DNA of 48,084 bases from an uncultured beta proteobacterium. Lineage in GTDB: Bacteria; Pseudomonadota; Gammaproteobacteria; Burkholderiales; Burkholderiaceae_B. Under the pieces are notes generated by a model that worked only from the letters and a program-made list of their open reading frames with translations, was not told where the DNA came from and did not search any database. Of this stretch, positions 4,971-46,034 are shown one piece after another; position 1 is the stretch's first letter, and each line of letters begins with the position of its first letter. Where the stretch lies: positions 1-48,084 of the forward strand of contig CAIZGG010000421.1 in NCBI GenBank assembly GCA_903932425.1. Reading direction: 5' to 3'. A program made the translations under genes and the position numbers.

Positions 4971-5654
4971 ATGGATTCAAAAAAAGACTTTAAAAAGCTG
5001 ATGCTCGTCGTTGATGGGCTCAGTACATTTGTTGGAAAGGGATCGGGATGGTTGATCATCCTGTTGATGGTGATGGTATGTATCGACGTCTTGAGACGCT
5101 ACGTGCTCAATGCACCCTCAGCCTGGATCGGCGAACTCTCAGTGATGTCGTACGGCGCAGTCATTATGTTGTCGGGCGCCTATACGCTAGCCCAAAATGG
5201 CCATGTTCGCGGCGACTTTTTATACGGCTCGATGAAGCCACGCACACAAGCCACGTTTGACTTGATCTTGTACATTACTTTTTTTCTACCGGGCGTGACG
5301 GCACTTTGCTACGCAGGGTATACCTTTGCAGCCGACTCTTGGCGTATTGGCGAACACACCACGCAAATCGCGAACGGCCCGCCGGTTTATCACTTTAAGT
5401 CTTTAATTCCAATCGCCGGCGGCTTTTTGCTTTTGCAAGGCTTTATTGAAATGATTCGCTGCGTCATTTGCCTCAATACCGGAGAGTGGCCAGAGCGTCT
5501 AAAAGATGCCGAAGAAATTGACGTCGTCGAGCAGCAATTAGAAGCCTCAACGTACGTTGACGAAGAATCAAAGAACATGGCTATTGCGCGCGCTAAAACA
5601 ATTGATGAAGAGGCCCACCAGCGCATTGGTGGCATGAAAGGAGAAAAATCATGA
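4971..5654 (+). CDS. TRAP transporter small permease subunit (DctQ type)
   Basis: 227-residue inner-membrane protein with four hydrophobic segments (about residues 22-42, 58-78, 98-120, 140-162), the Q-subunit topology, including WLIILLMVMVCIDVLRRYVLNAP and the GELSVM element after it. The last 50 residues form a charged, probably cytoplasmic tail rich in Glu and Lys (EEIDVVEQQLEAS), longer than in many DctQ proteins. The stop overlaps the start of the M gene as ATGA, so the two permease subunits are translationally coupled. It lies downstream of the terminator-like hairpin at 4910-4941. Confidence 0.9.
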   Translation: MDSKKDFKKLMLVVDGLSTFVGKGSGWLIILLMVMVCIDVLRRYVLNAPSAWIGELSVMSYGAVIMLSGAYTLAQNGHVRGDFLYGSMKPRTQATFDLILYITFFLPGVTALCYAGYTFAADSWRIGEHTTQIANGPPVYHFKSLIPIAGGFLLLQGFIEMIRCVICLNTGEWPERLKDAEEIDVVEQQLEASTYVDEESKNMAIARAKTIDEEAHQRIGGMKGEKS

Positions 5655-7531
5655 GTGATCCGTATCTTGGCCTCTTGATGCTATGCCTGATCGTCGTGGT
5701 CATTATGTTGGGTTTCCCAACCGCCTTTACCTTGATGGGCTTAGGCATGGCCTTTGGTTTTTTTGCGTTCTACGACCCCAGCGATGTCTGGACCAATAAC
5801 AAGATTTTTACGCTGATGGTGCAGCGCACCTACGGAGGGATGACGAACGACACGTTATTGTCAATCCCGCTCTTTGTACTGATGGGCTACGTCATGGAAC
5901 GTGGCGCCTTGGTCGACAAAATGTTTCATAGCGTGCAACTGGCGTTTCGTGGCATGCCGGCCTCACTCGCGGTGGCAACGCTGGTCATCTGTACGTTCTG
6001 GGGCATTGCAAGCGGTCTGGTAGGCGCTGTTGTGGTGCTAATGGGTGTGATTGCACTTAAGCCCATGCTCAACGCTGGCTACGATATTCGCCTGGCCAGT
6101 GGTGTCATTACGGCCGGAGGTACACTTGGAATCTTGATCCCACCTTCGGTGATGATTATCGTTTACGCCGCAGTCGCTGGCCAATCGGTCGTCAAGCTTT
6201 ACGCCGCTGCGATGTTGCCCGGATTTTTTCTTGCCTTACTTTACCTGGTGTACGTGATCGGCTGGGCGCTCATTGATCCAAAAATTGCACCCAAGCTACC
6301 ACCTGAGCAACTGAAGGTACCCATCCCTGCTCCCGTTGCCTTTCTAAGGGATCACTACTCGTCGAACTTTCTTATTGCAACCATCAAAGCCGCCTTCGCA
6401 CCAGGGCCTTTACTGAGCGCACCAGAAGGTGCTCGCATTACCTATGGCCGCATCATCAAGAATTTAATTTCGGCAGTGTTCCCACTGGTCATGACTCTTG
6501 CTCTGATCGCGGGCACTTGGTGGTATGCCGTTATTCATCCAAAAGCTGAGTTTGATGCAGCGCAGGCGTCGATGGTGATTGCCAAGCCTTTACCCAACCC
6601 CTCGACGCAAGCCCCTGAGAAGGCTCAAGAAGAAGTGTTGGTCGAAATCGGCGCGGAAAGCTCTTCGAGCTCACGTGGATCAAGCAACAACAACGGTGGC
6701 TTAATTGCTTTGGATGCAGATCCTGAAAACGCCGATAGTCAAAAAGCAGACGTTTACACCCCGCCCTCGGATAACTTCTATCTGTACTTCGGGATTACAA
6801 GCTTTTTAACCCTGCTTCTGTTGATTAACTATTACCGCAAGTTAAAGGATGAGCAGTTTGAAATCCTGAAGTTGTTGGTTGAGTCAGTCATGCCTTTGGG
6901 CATTTTGACAGTCGTGGTGCTAGCCGTAATTTTGCTGGGCATCACAACCGCAACTGAGTCTGCGGCAATTGGGGCGGCAGGTGCGTTCTTGCTTGCGTGG
7001 TCATCAGGGTCGTTCACCTTTGAGCGGATGAAGCAGGCCGTGTTTTTAACAACCAAAACCACCTCAATGGTTTGTTGGTTGTTCGTCGGCTCAGCTTTGT
7101 TCTCTGCCGTATTTGCGATCTTGGGCGGTCAACAGATCATTGAGAGCTGGGTGCTGGGCATGAACCTCACCCCACTGCAATTTATGCTGCTTTCACAAGC
7201 ATTGATCTTTGTCCTTGGCTGGCCGCTTGAGTGGACTGAAATCATTGTGATTTTTGTGCCAATCTTTTTGCCCATGCTGTCACACTTCAACATCGACCCA
7301 ATTCTGTGGGGCACGTTGGTATTTGTGAACTTGCAAGCAGCCTTCTTGTCACCACCCGTTGCAATGTCAGCGTTTTACTTGAAGGGGGTTGCACCACCAC
7401 ATGTGACCCTTAATCAGATTTTTGCTGGCATGATGCCCTACATGTTCATCGTCATCGTCTGCATGGCAATCATGTATGTATGGCCGGGCATGACGCTTTG
7501 GCTGCCTAAATATCTTTACGGTGGCGGTTAA
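5651..7531 (+). CDS. TRAP transporter large permease subunit (DctM type) with long central insert
   Basis: 626-residue membrane transporter, well above the roughly 425 residues usual for DctM. N-terminal half (about 1-295) and C-terminal half (about 400-626) are normal, with GFPTAFTLMGLGMAFGF, SIPLFVLMGYVMERG, the TLGILIPPSVMIIVYA segment and a C-terminal FLSPPVAMSAFYLKG. Between them, about residues 296-376 form a hydrophilic loop with a Ser/Asn run (ESSSSSRGSSNNNGG), followed by an added hydrophobic segment (FYLYFGITSFLTLLLLINYY, about 376-395). Long M subunits occur in the FcbT3 branch (COG4664), which fits the receptor type. Starts in the ATGA overlap with the Q gene. Confidence 0.92.
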   Translation: MSDPYLGLLMLCLIVVVIMLGFPTAFTLMGLGMAFGFFAFYDPSDVWTNNKIFTLMVQRTYGGMTNDTLLSIPLFVLMGYVMERGALVDKMFHSVQLAFRGMPASLAVATLVICTFWGIASGLVGAVVVLMGVIALKPMLNAGYDIRLASGVITAGGTLGILIPPSVMIIVYAAVAGQSVVKLYAAAMLPGFFLALLYLVYVIGWALIDPKIAPKLPPEQLKVPIPAPVAFLRDHYSSNFLIATIKAAFAPGPLLSAPEGARITYGRIIKNLISAVFPLVMTLALIAGTWWYAVIHPKAEFDAAQASMVIAKPLPNPSTQAPEKAQEEVLVEIGAESSSSSRGSSNNNGGLIALDADPENADSQKADVYTPPSDNFYLYFGITSFLTLLLLINYYRKLKDEQFEILKLLVESVMPLGILTVVVLAVILLGITTATESAAIGAAGAFLLAWSSGSFTFERMKQAVFLTTKTTSMVCWLFVGSALFSAVFAILGGQQIIESWVLGMNLTPLQFMLLSQALIFVLGWPLEWTEIIVIFVPIFLPMLSHFNIDPILWGTLVFVNLQAAFLSPPVAMSAFYLKGVAPPHVTLNQIFAGMMPYMFIVIVCMAIMYVWPGMTLWLPKYLYGGG

Positions 7532-41075: not shown

Positions 41076-41259
41076 GGTATGTCTCCAGTTTTTATTTTTT
41101 TGCAATTGCCACGAATTTTGTGCAATGTGGCCTATCTTTTTGTGCCTCATGACCGCTCTGAGCACACAGCTTAATGGTAAGGTGTTTGTCGTCAGCGTGA
41201 ATATCCTGCACTCACCACGCAATTGCCCGCTCATTCCGCACACTTCTTTTCAGACAATC

Positions 41260-43068
41260 ATGCTCACATCTCTTCGCCAAACAGCCAAGCACTTAATCTT
41301 ATCACTCGCGACCTTGACGTTGACCTCAGCTTCGATGGCGCAGGCGCCTACTGTGAACTATCTGGATCAGGCCTGGACCGCACAGGACCGTGCTGATTAT
41401 TACTGGACCTCGCAAGGGTCTGCGCTGTTGTCCTATGGCATCTATCTTGCGCTTGAAGCTGCAGGCACAACAGACTTGTTTAACTCGCCAGCGCACAATG
41501 ATCGTATGGGTCTGCTCACCGAGCCACTAAACCTCGCGCAAAATCCAGACAATTTACCGGTTGGCGTCGCAAAGGCCTCAGTCACCGTCGGGCAATATAA
41601 AGGCACCTATGCGGGCCTGACCTGTGCCGCCTGTCATACCGGCCAAATTCAGTATCAGGGCAAACAAATACGTATCGAGGGTGGCGCCACAAGCCGCCTC
41701 GCACTTTGGGATTGGCTGCGTTCGTTGTCTGCCTCGCTCGATAGTGTCTCAACCGATCCTGCAAAATACAAAGCGCTGACTGAGCGTATTCGCACCAGGG
41801 GTTCGGTTGACGAAGCGGATCTTCGTAAACGTTTGATGGCCGACACTGCATTGCTCAGAGAGCGCGTCGACACGATTTTGCTGATGCCGTTTGATTCGGG
41901 CCCGGGCCGTATGGATGCACTCGGGCTGATTCACAATGCGTTTATGGGTGGCGCCACGGGTACGCTTCAAAACATGCGTCTGGCGGCGGCGCCTGTTAAA
42001 CCGCCTTTTCTCTGGAACGCTCCGCAATCGGCTTGGATTCAGTGGAGCGGCATCAGTGACAACCCATTGACTAGAAACTTTAGCGAAACCCTGGGCGTTT
42101 TCGCGCGTTACGACTTGAAGTCTGCCGATCCCGAGTCAGGCTTATTTGAAACGACCACCGACGTCAAAGGGATGGTCAAACTTGAACATCTGCTTAGACG
42201 TCTTGCCCCTCCTAAGTGGCCTGAAGAGCTGCTTGGCAAGCTTGATGAAGGGCGGGTTAAAGACGGTGAAAAACTCTTTGCCAAACATTGCATCGAGTGC
42301 CATACCTCCTATCCTTATCGGTGGAGTGAACCACGCAAAGGCGGGATGCGAGGTATCGAAAATGCGCTGGTGCCACAAAGGATTGTTGGAACCGATGCCA
42401 CCCAACTGAATGGGGTCTCGTTTGACCCCAATCCACTGATTGCAACCAAGAATCTGGCTTCGTATTTTGATGGCAAGCAGGCGGTCTCTAATGGCGATTA
42501 CACGGCGAAGATCGTTGGGCAAATGCTTACGCGCGCGCTCAAGCAAGCGGGCCCTTTCACCCAGAGTGACCTAGACGACATGAATGGCTATACGCCCTCG
42601 GCCACGAGCGCCCCCGTGCAGAGCTACAAAGCGGGCCCCAGAGATGGCGTGTGGGCAACCGGGCCGTTCTTGCACAACGGTTCTGTACCGAACATCTACG
42701 AACTCTTGTCGCCAGCGTCTGAGCGCTCAAAAACGTTTTACGTTGGTCGTGACTTTGATCCGGTCAAGCTTGGGCTTGATATCGCTGGTAACAAAGAGGG
42801 GTACTTCTTTGACACGACGCGCATTGGCAATTCAAATGCCGGGCATTCGTTTGAACACACCATGGGTCCAGGTGTGGTTGGCCCGGCCTTCAGCGAAAGC
42901 GAACGTTTCGCCTTGATTGAATACCTCAAGTCGATTCCGAATCAAGCCGGGCGTATCACACCCTATGGCGGCCCGAAAGATCCGTTGATCGCCAAAGAAG
43001 ACCCGCTTTGGTTTAACAAAAAACACCCGTACTCTTCTTCTGCACCAAGCCCTGTGAGCGCTAAATAA
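41260..43068 (+). CDS. Exported di-heme cytochrome c, RoxA/MauG-like
   Basis: 602 residues, periplasmic. The signal peptide ends at AQA (residue 29). Two c-type heme sites: CAACH (122-126) and CIECH (344-348). Between them GPGRMD and LWNAPQSAWIQWSG; near the C-terminus YKAGPRDGVWATGPFLHNGSVPNIYELL and FDPVKLG. That ending is typical of RoxA-like di-heme proteins of the cytochrome c peroxidase/MauG superfamily, such as rubber oxygenase RoxA. A peroxidase- or oxygenase-like oxidation is likely; the substrate is unknown. The gene could be read further upstream (to 40906), but only the ATG at 41260 gives a signal peptide. TAATG links it to the next gene. Confidence 0.88.
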   Translation: MLTSLRQTAKHLILSLATLTLTSASMAQAPTVNYLDQAWTAQDRADYYWTSQGSALLSYGIYLALEAAGTTDLFNSPAHNDRMGLLTEPLNLAQNPDNLPVGVAKASVTVGQYKGTYAGLTCAACHTGQIQYQGKQIRIEGGATSRLALWDWLRSLSASLDSVSTDPAKYKALTERIRTRGSVDEADLRKRLMADTALLRERVDTILLMPFDSGPGRMDALGLIHNAFMGGATGTLQNMRLAAAPVKPPFLWNAPQSAWIQWSGISDNPLTRNFSETLGVFARYDLKSADPESGLFETTTDVKGMVKLEHLLRRLAPPKWPEELLGKLDEGRVKDGEKLFAKHCIECHTSYPYRWSEPRKGGMRGIENALVPQRIVGTDATQLNGVSFDPNPLIATKNLASYFDGKQAVSNGDYTAKIVGQMLTRALKQAGPFTQSDLDDMNGYTPSATSAPVQSYKAGPRDGVWATGPFLHNGSVPNIYELLSPASERSKTFYVGRDFDPVKLGLDIAGNKEGYFFDTTRIGNSNAGHSFEHTMGPGVVGPAFSESERFALIEYLKSIPNQAGRITPYGGPKDPLIAKEDPLWFNKKHPYSSSAPSPVSAK

Positions 43069-44564
43069 TGTCAGATCATATTGACGGCCCCCGCCAAACA
43101 GCTGACCCCGTCAGTGATCTTACCGATCTGTTTGCTTTTACCAGCCCCGCCAATTCAAAGCGCACAGTCCTCATCGCGTGCGTGCTGCCTTTTGCGGGTG
43201 AGTCGGCGTTGTTTTCAAACACGATTAACTATGCGTTTGTAGTGCGCCGACTTAAGCAGACGGGTTTGGGTTTGCAAGCCGGTTTCGAGGCCCTGGCAGA
43301 CGAGTGGCGCTTTACTTTTCAGTTTGAAGTGCTAGGGCCTGAAACCGTGACAGGACGGGCCAGGCAAGCTGGACATTGTGTGCTGCCCAGTGGCGCCACT
43401 CTTGCCTTGACCGTCAATGACGAGCAAGGCTTCGCAACGGCCGATGGGCGTACCCGCGTGTTTGCCGGTTTGCGGTCAGATCCGTTTTTTCCGGGTTGGT
43501 TGCCGGGGTCAATGAAATCTGTCCCAAACTACCTTGAAAACGACAATGTTCTGAGCGTTGTTGTTGAGTTTGATACAGACTCAACTCTTGCACCGCAACA
43601 TGGCAGCCTCTATGGAGTCATTGCCGAAACAACCGCACGTCACCCAAATCCAAACGCCAATGTCATCCCGCGCTTTGACTGGGTCGGGCGCCCCGAACAA
43701 ACAAACTTCATCATGGATCACGTGCCTGGGGCAGTCGATATTCGCGATCTTTGGAATCAAGAAACGCCCTTTGCACTTAATGCAGCGCGCCTGCCGCTCT
43801 ATCGCCAACGGCTCACTGAAAGCTTTCAGCTGTGGGATCAAAAAGATCAGAACATTGAATGGGATCCCGCTTCACTTCAAGCGCATGTGAATGTGCGGCT
43901 CAATGACTTTCTGACGTTTGACGTTGCCAAGCCAATGAGCGACAAGAGCCATCTTGAAATTGAAAAGAGTACGCTTGAAGGACGCCCTTACACGACGGGT
44001 GGCGGGCGCACCGTGAATGCGAACGTCATCGACATTTTGGTTACCTGGCTCATTAACCGAGATCGAGGCGCGTTTTTGCAAGGCGGTGCGTTGCAGGCGA
44101 CGCAACCTGGCAGCACAACATTTCCGTATGTGCGACCCGGCAACAAAAACCTGTTGAGCGTCACACGTAGCGTCGAACTTAAGGCCTCGGCCCAAGAAGT
44201 CTGGCAAGCCATTGGCGGCTTTGGTAGCCTGTGGCATCCGCTGGTCGCACAACTTACACTTACTGGCGAAGGCACGGGGCAATTGCGTCGTATTGAAACC
44301 CTTGACGGAAAAATCATGATCGAGCGTCTGAGCGAGCGTGATGAGGCTTCAAAAACCTACCGCTATGCCATGGTCAGCGGGATTCCAGCAAACCCCTACA
44401 ACGGTACGCTTTCAGTTCAAGCTACTGCAGCGGGATCGAGTGTGACGTGGTCAGTGTCGTATCGACCCGAAGGCCAGGGCGATTTAATCGTGCGCTTGAT
44501 TATCTCGAGCCTTCTGAACGCGGGTATGGCAGAACTCAAGAAGCGTTTTGGCGCGACGACGTGA
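43068..44564 (+). CDS. DUF4331-SRPBCC fusion protein
   Basis: 498 residues. N-terminal DUF4331 part (about 1-360) begins with the family hallmark SDHIDGPRQTADPVSDLTDLFAF and includes FDWVGRPEQTNF. From about 364 to 498 follows a polyketide-cyclase/START-like SRPBCC domain (VTRSVELKASAQEVWQAIGG). This pair in one chain is unusual. DUF4331 proteins are often exported, but here there is no signal peptide, so a cytoplasmic place is predicted. Overlaps the cytochrome stop by one base and the next gene's start by four (GTGA), a tight translational chain. No known function; binding of a hydrophobic ligand or a peptide by the SRPBCC part is one idea. Confidence 0.85.
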   Translation: MSDHIDGPRQTADPVSDLTDLFAFTSPANSKRTVLIACVLPFAGESALFSNTINYAFVVRRLKQTGLGLQAGFEALADEWRFTFQFEVLGPETVTGRARQAGHCVLPSGATLALTVNDEQGFATADGRTRVFAGLRSDPFFPGWLPGSMKSVPNYLENDNVLSVVVEFDTDSTLAPQHGSLYGVIAETTARHPNPNANVIPRFDWVGRPEQTNFIMDHVPGAVDIRDLWNQETPFALNAARLPLYRQRLTESFQLWDQKDQNIEWDPASLQAHVNVRLNDFLTFDVAKPMSDKSHLEIEKSTLEGRPYTTGGGRTVNANVIDILVTWLINRDRGAFLQGGALQATQPGSTTFPYVRPGNKNLLSVTRSVELKASAQEVWQAIGGFGSLWHPLVAQLTLTGEGTGQLRRIETLDGKIMIERLSERDEASKTYRYAMVSGIPANPYNGTLSVQATAAGSSVTWSVSYRPEGQGDLIVRLIISSLLNAGMAELKKRFGATT

Positions 44565-45757
44565 ACAGGCCAAGCTCGGTGATCGCCCTACCCGCCGCCA
44601 CCGATGGCGCGCTCGCGCTGTTAAATCACGAAAGTATTTTGGATCGGTGCTGGCAAACCATCGAGCGATATCCCGAACGCATGGGGATTGCTGCGCAACT
44701 GATTGACGAAGAGTATCGTCGCTCGCATTTCTTAGGAGACGCCGGCGCCCTTGAGCGCCTTCTTGTGCTCTCTGACACCTTGCTGCAGCAGTCTGCGAGG
44801 TCGGGCGAGACGTACTTACTGGCAGCGCAAATTGCGTCGCTGGTTCATAAGTTCGCTGATGCGAAGCTTTATTTGGTTCAGGCAAACGATCTTGCCGCTG
44901 ATGCTCAAAGCGTTTTGCGTCAACAACTATCAATCGATCACGCGACCGGTCACAATTGGCAGGGCGTGCTCGAGACAAGGCTGCGCTTAAGCGAACAAAG
45001 CCCGAGCTTGCAAAACCTTGTGGCGCTAGGTGCCCTGTACGCTGAAATGGGCCTGTACCAAGAGGCTGAAAATTCGTATCTCAACGCGATTGTGCAAGAC
45101 CGCGAACATTCGCCGTTCAGTCTGGCTTGGGCGTGTTTTCAGTTGGGCGTGTTGTTTGGCGAAACGCTTACGCCAGCTGACCCAAAGGCAGCGCAGTATT
45201 GGTACGAGAAAGCCATGGCCTACCTGCCTGCCTACACGCATGCGCGCGTGCATTTAGCCGAGTTGCATCTTGACGCAAGGCAATTCGACTCGGCGCTCAA
45301 GCTATTGCAACCGATCCAAGACAGTGCAGATCCAGAAGTGTCTTGGAGACTGGCGCAGCTTTATGAAAAAACAGGTCAGACACGCGAGGCGCGTCACCAT
45401 CTTGCACGTACGCAGCATATTTTTGAGCAGTTATTAACTCACCACGAACTCGCCTTTGCCGACCACGCTGTCGATTTTTATCTTGAAGAAGGTGATGATC
45501 CAGACAAAGCGCTACAACTCGCGTTGCTGAACCTAGACAATCGAGCCACGCTAAGAGCCTTCGAACTTAGCGTCGAAGCGGCGCAGGCTGCTAGCCAGAA
45601 CCTCATGGCTCAAGCCTTGGCCGGCCGTGCCGCCGTACAGTGGGGGCATCTGCCAGCCTTTGAGCACTCAACCTTGAAAGCGAGCCGGCACTCGGCTCTA
45701 AACGCAGCCGTTGCACCCATTCCACACACCTCTGCATTTAATTTTTCAAATACCTGA
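44561..45757 (+). CDS. TPR-repeat protein
   Basis: 398 residues, all helical, with tetratricopeptide-like repeats from about 90 to 310 (for example NLVALGALYAEMGLYQEAENSYLNAI and VSWRLAQLYEKTGQTREARHHL split here). A C-terminal 80 residues rich in Ala, Ser and His are not repeat-like. No signal peptide or membrane segment. GTG 44561 overlaps the previous stop (GTGA); the longer frame to 44447 would lie wholly inside the preceding gene. TPR proteins usually hold other proteins together. It is likely a scaffold or chaperone for this operon. Thirteen bases separate it from the Tat peptide gene. Confidence 0.85.
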   Translation: MNRPSSVIALPAATDGALALLNHESILDRCWQTIERYPERMGIAAQLIDEEYRRSHFLGDAGALERLLVLSDTLLQQSARSGETYLLAAQIASLVHKFADAKLYLVQANDLAADAQSVLRQQLSIDHATGHNWQGVLETRLRLSEQSPSLQNLVALGALYAEMGLYQEAENSYLNAIVQDREHSPFSLAWACFQLGVLFGETLTPADPKAAQYWYEKAMAYLPAYTHARVHLAELHLDARQFDSALKLLQPIQDSADPEVSWRLAQLYEKTGQTREARHHLARTQHIFEQLLTHHELAFADHAVDFYLEEGDDPDKALQLALLNLDNRATLRAFELSVEAAQAASQNLMAQALAGRAAVQWGHLPAFEHSTLKASRHSALNAAVAPIPHTSAFNFSNT

Positions 45758-45770
45758 GCCAAGGCTGAAA

Positions 45771-46034
45771 ATGAACCGACGAAATTTTTTAGTCAGCAGC
45801 ACCGTCAGTGCAGTGTCGTGTGCGCTGCCGGTTAGCTTAAGTTTGACGACAGCACCGGCGTTTAGCGCCGCAGTGACGCAAAGTGTTGGTGAGCCTTTGC
45901 TGACTCAACCAACGACTCAAGACTCCCTATTCAGGCTGCACAACTGGGAATCCGCCCCTGAGCATAGTGAGTCAAACGAAGCAACCGCCCCGCTCATTAG
46001 CTTGTCGAGCAACTGGAAAGCCAACTGGCTTTGA
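45771..46034 (+). CDS. 87-residue Tat-exported small protein with three Asn-Trp sites
   Basis: The N-terminus has a twin-arginine signal (MNRRNFLVSSTVSAVSC), with cleavage around residues 33-34. The mature part of about 54 residues has Trp at 59, 82 and 86, each preceded by Asn (HNWE, SNWK, ANWL), and ends in NWL. AAGG lies six bases before the ATG. No family recognised; too small and too far from other genes to be explained otherwise, and its place at the end of a coupled operon supports reality. The Trp-rich tail makes it a candidate substrate of the di-heme enzyme; this is inferred. The Cys in the signal is not in a good lipobox. Confidence 0.7.
   Translation: MNRRNFLVSSTVSAVSCALPVSLSLTTAPAFSAAVTQSVGEPLLTQPTTQDSLFRLHNWESAPEHSESNEATAPLISLSSNWKANWL

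Follow-up and report, generated by a model that had tools for sequence, protein, structure and literature searches.

The stretch of DNA analysed here (the window, 48,084 nucleotides from an uncultured freshwater beta proteobacterium) is one of the 508 contigs in a genome bin that is 84% complete and 6% contaminated. Four tightly chained genes lie on its forward strand. The first encodes a di-heme c-type cytochrome of the NF040606 family with a Sec-like leader (CYT, 41260..43068, 602 aa) and is followed by genes for a leaderless DUF4331-SRPBCC protein (43068..44564, 498 aa), a leaderless TPR protein with a GTG start (44561..45757, 398 aa) and a small protein with a twin-arginine (Tat) leader (PEP, 45771..46034, 87 aa, with the RR codons at 45777-45782). 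CYT and DUF4331 are joined by TAATG at 43066-43070, DUF4331 and TPR by GTGA at 44561-44564, and a gap of 13 bases (45758-45770) separates TPR from PEP. These boundaries and all three junctions are as claimed in a preliminary description of this DNA, and the gene names given there are upheld by Pfam and NCBIfam scores. CYT obtained 449.3 bits (cut-off 150) against NF040606, di-heme-cytochrome C peroxidase, and is a member of that family, while the other scores were 83.6 bits for DUF4331 (PF14224, cut-off 27), 64.1 for Polyketide_cyc2 (cut-off 27.4), which is the SRPBCC domain at residues 364-494 (44157..44549), and 38 for TPR_19 (cut-off 25). It may be noted that leaders were called from motif and hydropathy rather than by a signal-peptide program. 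The four-gene unit is real and unusual, and the genome that holds it also encodes TatC.

The gene order CYT-DUF4331-TPR-PEP, which the preliminary description proposed to look for in related genomes, was kept in 7 of 7 named relatives found by a genome_contigs scan with P0002 (in L016 CYT is cut by the contig end). All of these come from uncultured bins, whose titles read Alcaligenaceae, beta- or gammaproteobacterium and, in two cases, Bordetella parapertussis; such bins may be mis-assembled, yet the seven separate named contigs agree. Also, the diverged locus L048 has the same order at identities of 59% (CYT), 57% (DUF4331), 49% (TPR) and 26% (PEP). As the seven named loci and L048 all keep the order, the unit is more than a chance arrangement. 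The mean ratio of nonsynonymous to synonymous polymorphism (pN/pS) is 0.14 for CYT, 0.09 for DUF4331, 0.25 for TPR and 0.41 for PEP, with 0.37 in the C-terminal part of PEP. Of 32 genomes of the genus, 10 have DUF4331, at 11 loci altogether, and 9 have a complete PEP (matched at E 1.8e-24 or better), always at a DUF4331 locus. Weaker PEP matches in the genus (E 0.002-0.1) covered mostly the leader part and lay chiefly within much longer frames. Thus PEP was present at 10 of 11 judgeable loci (the window, L013-L019, L048 and L051), each time with the RR pair, and the small exported protein does belong to the unit as had been described; it is missing at L049. L050 is outside this count as its contig ends inside TPR, and G144 shows no more than a piece of CYT where a contig stops, with no DUF4331. 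In L051 the DUF4331-TPR-PEP part is kept, with a four-base overlap between PEP and the stop of TPR, and CYT is convergent on the opposite strand. Directly upstream of this part of L051 (2913-3704) is a gene of the acetolactate-decarboxylase family (48.6 bits in Pfam) whose product has a leader-like N-terminus. Farther afield, the TPR profile matched 1 other genome among 397 in the phylum draw (no more than 4 candidates scored per genome), and P0004 had no match among 199 other genomes of the order draw. One named relative, L019, has TPR and PEP alleles (5173-6572) that look recombinant from their identities: the N-half of TPR is 98% identical to L014 and the C-half 80%, and its mature PEP has 46% identity to L014 and 85% to the window.

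PEP has seven positions invariant in all ten members (R3, R4, F6, P20, W59, S79 and W82), and W86 and the last Leu are present in 9 of 10, the third Trp being lost in one of the two diverged loci. The preliminary description had pointed to three Asn-Trp sites. The Trp residues are indeed conserved, with W59 and W82 invariant, but the Asn is not throughout: at the 8 close loci it precedes the first Trp in 8 cases, the second in 7 and the third only in the window itself. The first Trp is part of the block FRLHNWE (45930..45950) and the other two belong to the C-terminus LSSNWKANWL (46002..46031), where all ten members have [LV]SxxW[KR] and nine of them end in WL. Eight of the ten leaders match Pfam TAT_signal (E 6e-4 at best), with two bit scores (15.5 and 19.4) below the cut-off of 22.7, and the mature protein is estimated at about 50 aa. 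At the 8 close loci TPR and PEP are 13-14 bases apart or overlap by 4 bases in 7 cases, and are 42 bases apart in L018. A chance open reading frame was ruled out by the conservation of start, frame and ends at 10 loci, a lipoprotein by the leader Cys being present in only 6 of 10, and a known family by TAT_signal being the sole Pfam match across the 10 PEPs. No match was found in the PDB at E up to 10, or in plasmid records at E up to 1 with the window or L048 version as query. A PEP profile run on 200 family genomes (at most 26 first-look candidates scored per genome) gave 3 matches at E up to 0.001, of which two are known genus loci (the window and G732); the third, G089 (E 9e-4, positions 10-79), is doubtful with a stop inside and was rejected as a PEP outside the genus. 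The pattern of conservation indicates that PEP is a real protein, and these searches met it in this genus alone.

CYT carries its heme motifs at residues 122-126 (CAACH, 41623..41637) and 344-348 (CIECH, 42289..42303), followed by PFLHNGSV, the so-called MauG motif (42664..42687), and by GNSNAGH with His529 (42826..42846). Both CXXCH motifs, His472 of HNGS and His529 are invariant over 13 family members, as is Trp252 (codon 42013..42015). Against solved chains the family profile scored 83.5 bits for RoxA (4b2n) and 26.9 for the next chain. His529 aligns with RoxA His641, one of the two His ligands of the C-terminal heme of RoxA in the account excerpted from PMC6311187; the same excerpt gives the MauG motif as common to RoxA and RoxB, and the motif is therefore no argument for MauG. 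Attempts with RoxA and MauG in E. coli are described there as unsuccessful. By alignment, then, CYT is RoxA-like with a predicted bis-His second heme, having the two CXXCH and the putative C-terminal second axial His that mark the RoxA-like fold group. The scores against the NCBIfam equivalogs of RoxA, RoxB and RoxC (48.7, 57.3 and 67.9 bits) fall far below the cut-offs of 900-1000, and hence CYT is not a rubber oxygenase of these kinds. In the portion of PMC4496055 consulted, the periplasmic fatty-acid oxygenating PA2077 and PA2078 are grouped with RoxA, apart from characterised cytochrome c peroxidases and MauG; when membership of PA2077 in NF040606 was sought, none of 14 control genomes matched. 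A viral source of CYT was ruled out as its patterns matched no viral contig.

Other members of the CYT family were found at 17 loci (10 from the 13 other genomes of a class search of 274, three more from the genus and four on plasmids). When frames of at least 50 aa were searched at E up to 0.05 within the fetched flanks, DUF4331 and PEP were both missing in 17 of 17 cases; L146 has a strong TPR relative and two more loci have weak TPR matches. A patatin-like gene adjoins the CYT kin in pNGR234a (as annotated) and in L146 (read by eye). The cluster around the CYT relative in pNGR234a (L056 5908-12828) includes, besides the patatin-like phospholipase, another RoxA-like cytochrome piece and a protein annotated as a catalase (21.1 bits against Pfam Catalase, below the cut-off), a gene content that suggests lipid peroxide chemistry. 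In G732 (L052 8028-11437) tandem CYT-family genes of 574 and 571 aa, followed by a carotenoid-biosynthesis-type gene, resemble the PA2078-PA2077 tandem.

The two middle proteins lacked a leader at all 11 CYT loci measured, and W265 and Y354 of DUF4331-SRPBCC are invariant in a 7-row alignment. A search of 72,556 plasmid records with P0002 gave 50 matches. The top six, at E 4e-47 or better and with 72-100% coverage, involve the DUF4331 part; the rest of the best 20 of the 50 are matches to SRPBCC only. TPR matches were found in six plasmid records, which are identical to the six best DUF4331 records. Thus DUF4331 and TPR travel as a pair. Four of the six plasmid loci were opened (Bradyrhizobium, Sinorhizobium, Streptomyces and Rhizobium), and in each a DyP-type peroxidase lies just upstream; the DyP calls come from NCBIfam matches for the two that were scanned, with which the other two align at 39-49%. 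Peroxidase, DUF4331 and TPR are all leaderless at these four loci, PEP is absent, and two of the four DUF4331 proteins are without SRPBCC. With DyP in these cases and the di-heme CYT in ours, two unrelated heme peroxidases therefore neighbour one partner pair. The tail of TPR separates the same groups: the pattern [WF]GxxxAF, seen in the window as WGHLPAF (45641..45661), occurs at 10 of 10 PEP-bearing loci and at 0 of 5 PEP-less ones (L049 and the four DyP loci). Upstream of the DyP/DUF4331 genes we also observed a family of proteins of about 170-250 aa, mutually related by BLAST (L010 4944-5561 and 7435-7950; L009 5272-5895 and 5941-6555; L011 3804-4517; L012 3675-4436), with no Pfam match in the four scanned, one doubtful match aside.

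Canonical DUF4331 proteins are of a different type. A DUF4331 protein was found in 12 other genomes of 299 phylum genomes, and 10 of these 12 loci were fetched, of which the DUF4331 profile recovered 9 (not L109). The frames have a hydrophobic N-terminus in 9 of 9 cases, followed by ASSHREAP in 8 of 9 (in the printed part). The window protein begins MSDH at the place matching ASSHREAP, and its own signal peptide is absent. The TPR profile recognised 2 of 11 canonical-type loci (the 10 fetched and L023), namely L105 and L023. At seven canonical loci no peroxidase of these two kinds was recognised among the neighbours, as judged by eye from N-termini. The canonical genes of L103, L104, L105, L110 and L112 stand in similar clusters, which by the same kind of reading hold sigma-factor and anti-sigma-like genes, a lipoprotein, an exported protein and a HupE-like membrane protein.

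Taken together, the evidence speaks more for an envelope oxidase of the RoxA or fatty-acid type, accompanied by a DUF4331-TPR pair and a Tat escort, than for a maturase that modifies Trp. Our reading, which is plausible and held tentatively, is that the four genes form one envelope oxidation system in which PEP is the Tat escort of DUF4331-TPR. CYT would be exported by Sec and receive its hemes in the periplasm, and as c-type hemes are attached there, this is where it would work. Judging from its family, it may act as a RoxA-type or fatty-acid-type di-heme oxygenase/peroxidase on a hydrophobic compound. DUF4331-SRPBCC and TPR would form a pair serving whichever heme peroxidase is present, SRPBCC probably holding the hydrophobic substrate or product. 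PEP would bind this pair in the cytoplasm via its conserved Trp-bearing C-terminus, most likely through TPR and the WGxxPAF tail, and carry it through the Tat pore, like MelC1 with MelC2 or PaoA with PaoB and PaoC. Leaderless partners of PaoABC and MelC1-MelC2 are exported with a Tat-leader partner, as reported in parts of PMC4273604 and PMC2758597.

The escort role is suggested because the partners of CYT are without a signal and PEP adds a Tat leader and little else, because PEP is absent where the peroxidase is itself leaderless (the DyP loci), because PEP stays joined to TPR in L051 with CYT on the other strand, and because the canonical DUF4331 proteins carry leaders. Contact between PEP and TPR fits since the tail motif tracks PEP. 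A number of points weigh against the escort role. At L049 CYT-DUF4331-TPR is complete on its 3′ side without PEP, the next gene, 22 bases after TPR on the same strand, being antiporter-like as read by eye; this genome has a further copy, but there the contig stops within TPR, so PEP may be present in trans. In the TPR tree the proteins from PEP-bearing loci cluster together (94/97), and the tail and PEP may thus be a single shared gain; in the DUF4331 tree the PEP-bearing rows are not one group. No covariation was seen between the pairwise distances of mature PEP and those of CYT, DUF4331 or TPR (rho -0.06 to 0.26). SRPBCC and TPR proteins are often cytoplasmic. Also, co-export is predicted from the genes, and both structure models are of low confidence (mean pLDDT, predicted local distance difference test, of 35.8 for DUF4331-SRPBCC from 8 near-identical sequences and 31.1 for CYT from 7 near-identical sequences), because the alignment depth was too small.

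The leaderless state of DUF4331 and TPR and the overlapping or abutting position of PEP would equally suit an arrangement in which TPR, either by itself or together with DUF4331, acts in the cytoplasm as a chaperone that proofreads the Tat export of PEP, PEP alone is exported as a small accessory of CYT, and DUF4331-SRPBCC acts on the product inside the cell. Dedicated chaperones of Tat proteins are known (from the part of PMC4273604 consulted), and we consider this arrangement possible, if rather doubtful: canonical DUF4331 is secreted, and since six plasmid records have the pair but no PEP, chaperoning PEP is not the sole role of TPR. The maturation reading of the preliminary description, by which CYT is a MauG/MbnH-like enzyme oxidising the conserved Trp of PEP in the periplasm to give a modified peptide or cofactor, is weakened: the observation behind it is confirmed and its interpretation is partly supported. 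The conservation of the three Trp, the export leaders on both CYT and PEP, and the presence of CYT at all 10 PEP loci agree with it. Against this, the one strong solved relative of CYT by profile is RoxA, CYT has a predicted bis-His second heme, PEP is missing at L049 and at every one of the 17 other CYT-family loci, and in L051 it keeps to TPR rather than to CYT. Of two sequence-based outcomes that the preliminary description named as refuting it, a cytochrome with no small peptide in related genomes does occur (L049 and the 17 loci), and a lack of Trp conservation in the peptide does not. The preliminary description also saw DUF4331-SRPBCC and TPR as putative cytoplasmic carriers or chaperones; canonical DUF4331 proteins have leaders. 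Such an enzyme is unlikely here, and Trp oxidation of PEP is possible but not favoured.

It is also conceivable, and in our estimate quite improbable, that DUF4331 is the protein which the heme peroxidase matures, with DyP doing so inside the cell and CYT outside, by way of an oxidised residue or cofactor, and that PEP and TPR only handle and export it. In its favour, DUF4331-TPR stays the same while the heme peroxidase beside it is of one or the other of two unrelated kinds, W265 and Y354 are invariant in the 7-row alignment, and GlxA needs a DyP (DtpA) for its maturation according to a portion of PMC4736821; no such peroxidase, on the other hand, was recognised at the seven canonical loci. 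A broader version of the escort reading, which we put forward as speculative and doubtful, would make DUF4331-TPR a general partner module of heme peroxidases of unrelated fold, moved to the periplasm by a genus-evolved Tat micro-protein of about 50 residues that the TPR tail reads via its Trp C-terminus, and perhaps having that Trp oxidised there by the cytochrome as well.

The unit is flanked by MFS (major facilitator superfamily), GMC oxidoreductase and binding protein genes on one side and by hydrolase and aldolase genes on the other, and these flanks are largely kept within contig reach. The gap between the divergent MFS gene and CYT contains repeated TTTTKTGCAAT-like candidate boxes (41100..41155, no strand assigned), which were seen at 6 of 7 aligned loci (L013-L017 and L019, not L018) and are possibly an operator. 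Promoter-like sites were no commoner than in shuffles (1 against 2.4) and neither were terminator-like sites (6 against 6.6).

DUF4331 is not named in the literature searched, a search that had most subscription journals outside its scope. If the escort reading is true, DUF4331 would gain a first functional setting, beside heme peroxidases, and a single partner pair would be used with unrelated peroxidases, one on each side of the membrane. The few known Tat hitchhiker systems would also be joined by an escort of very small size. The case further cautions that a di-heme protein beside a Trp-bearing peptide is not always MauG-like.

On comparison with known systems, CYT shares with RoxA-type oxygenases and FadCcp (PA2077/PA2078) the two CXXCH, the HNGS motif, a C-terminal His matching that of RoxA and a Sec-like leader, but differs in being coupled to DUF4331, TPR and PEP (PA2077/PA2078 are not in the CYT alignment). 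The RoxA-like fold group has a Trp between the hemes (W302 in RoxA, W251 in PA2077), and W252 of CYT is a possible counterpart in a stretch that is unaligned to RoxA. With MauG and MbnH the unit has in common a di-heme protein, the MauG motif and an operon that includes a small exported protein bearing Trp; the second heme of MauG has His-Tyr ligands as opposed to the bis-His predicted for CYT, and at the loci opened CYT relatives usually lack the small protein. The Tat hitchhikers (MelC1-MelC2, PaoABC and HybOC) likewise place one Tat-leader partner beside leaderless ones, though PEP is much smaller, has no matching family and, unlike the tyrosinase helper MelC1, shows no sequence kinship to a known family beyond its leader, and co-export is here a prediction. 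The canonical secreted DUF4331 loci share the domain and, in L105 and L023, an adjoining TPR relative, whereas the window protein is leaderless, carries SRPBCC and stands beside a cytochrome and PEP. A parallel in the partner pair is given by the DyP-DUF4331-TPR loci of rhizobia and Streptomyces, where a leaderless DUF4331-TPR pair also neighbours a heme peroxidase, except that this peroxidase is a leaderless DyP, SRPBCC is lacking in half of the four and PEP does not accompany them.

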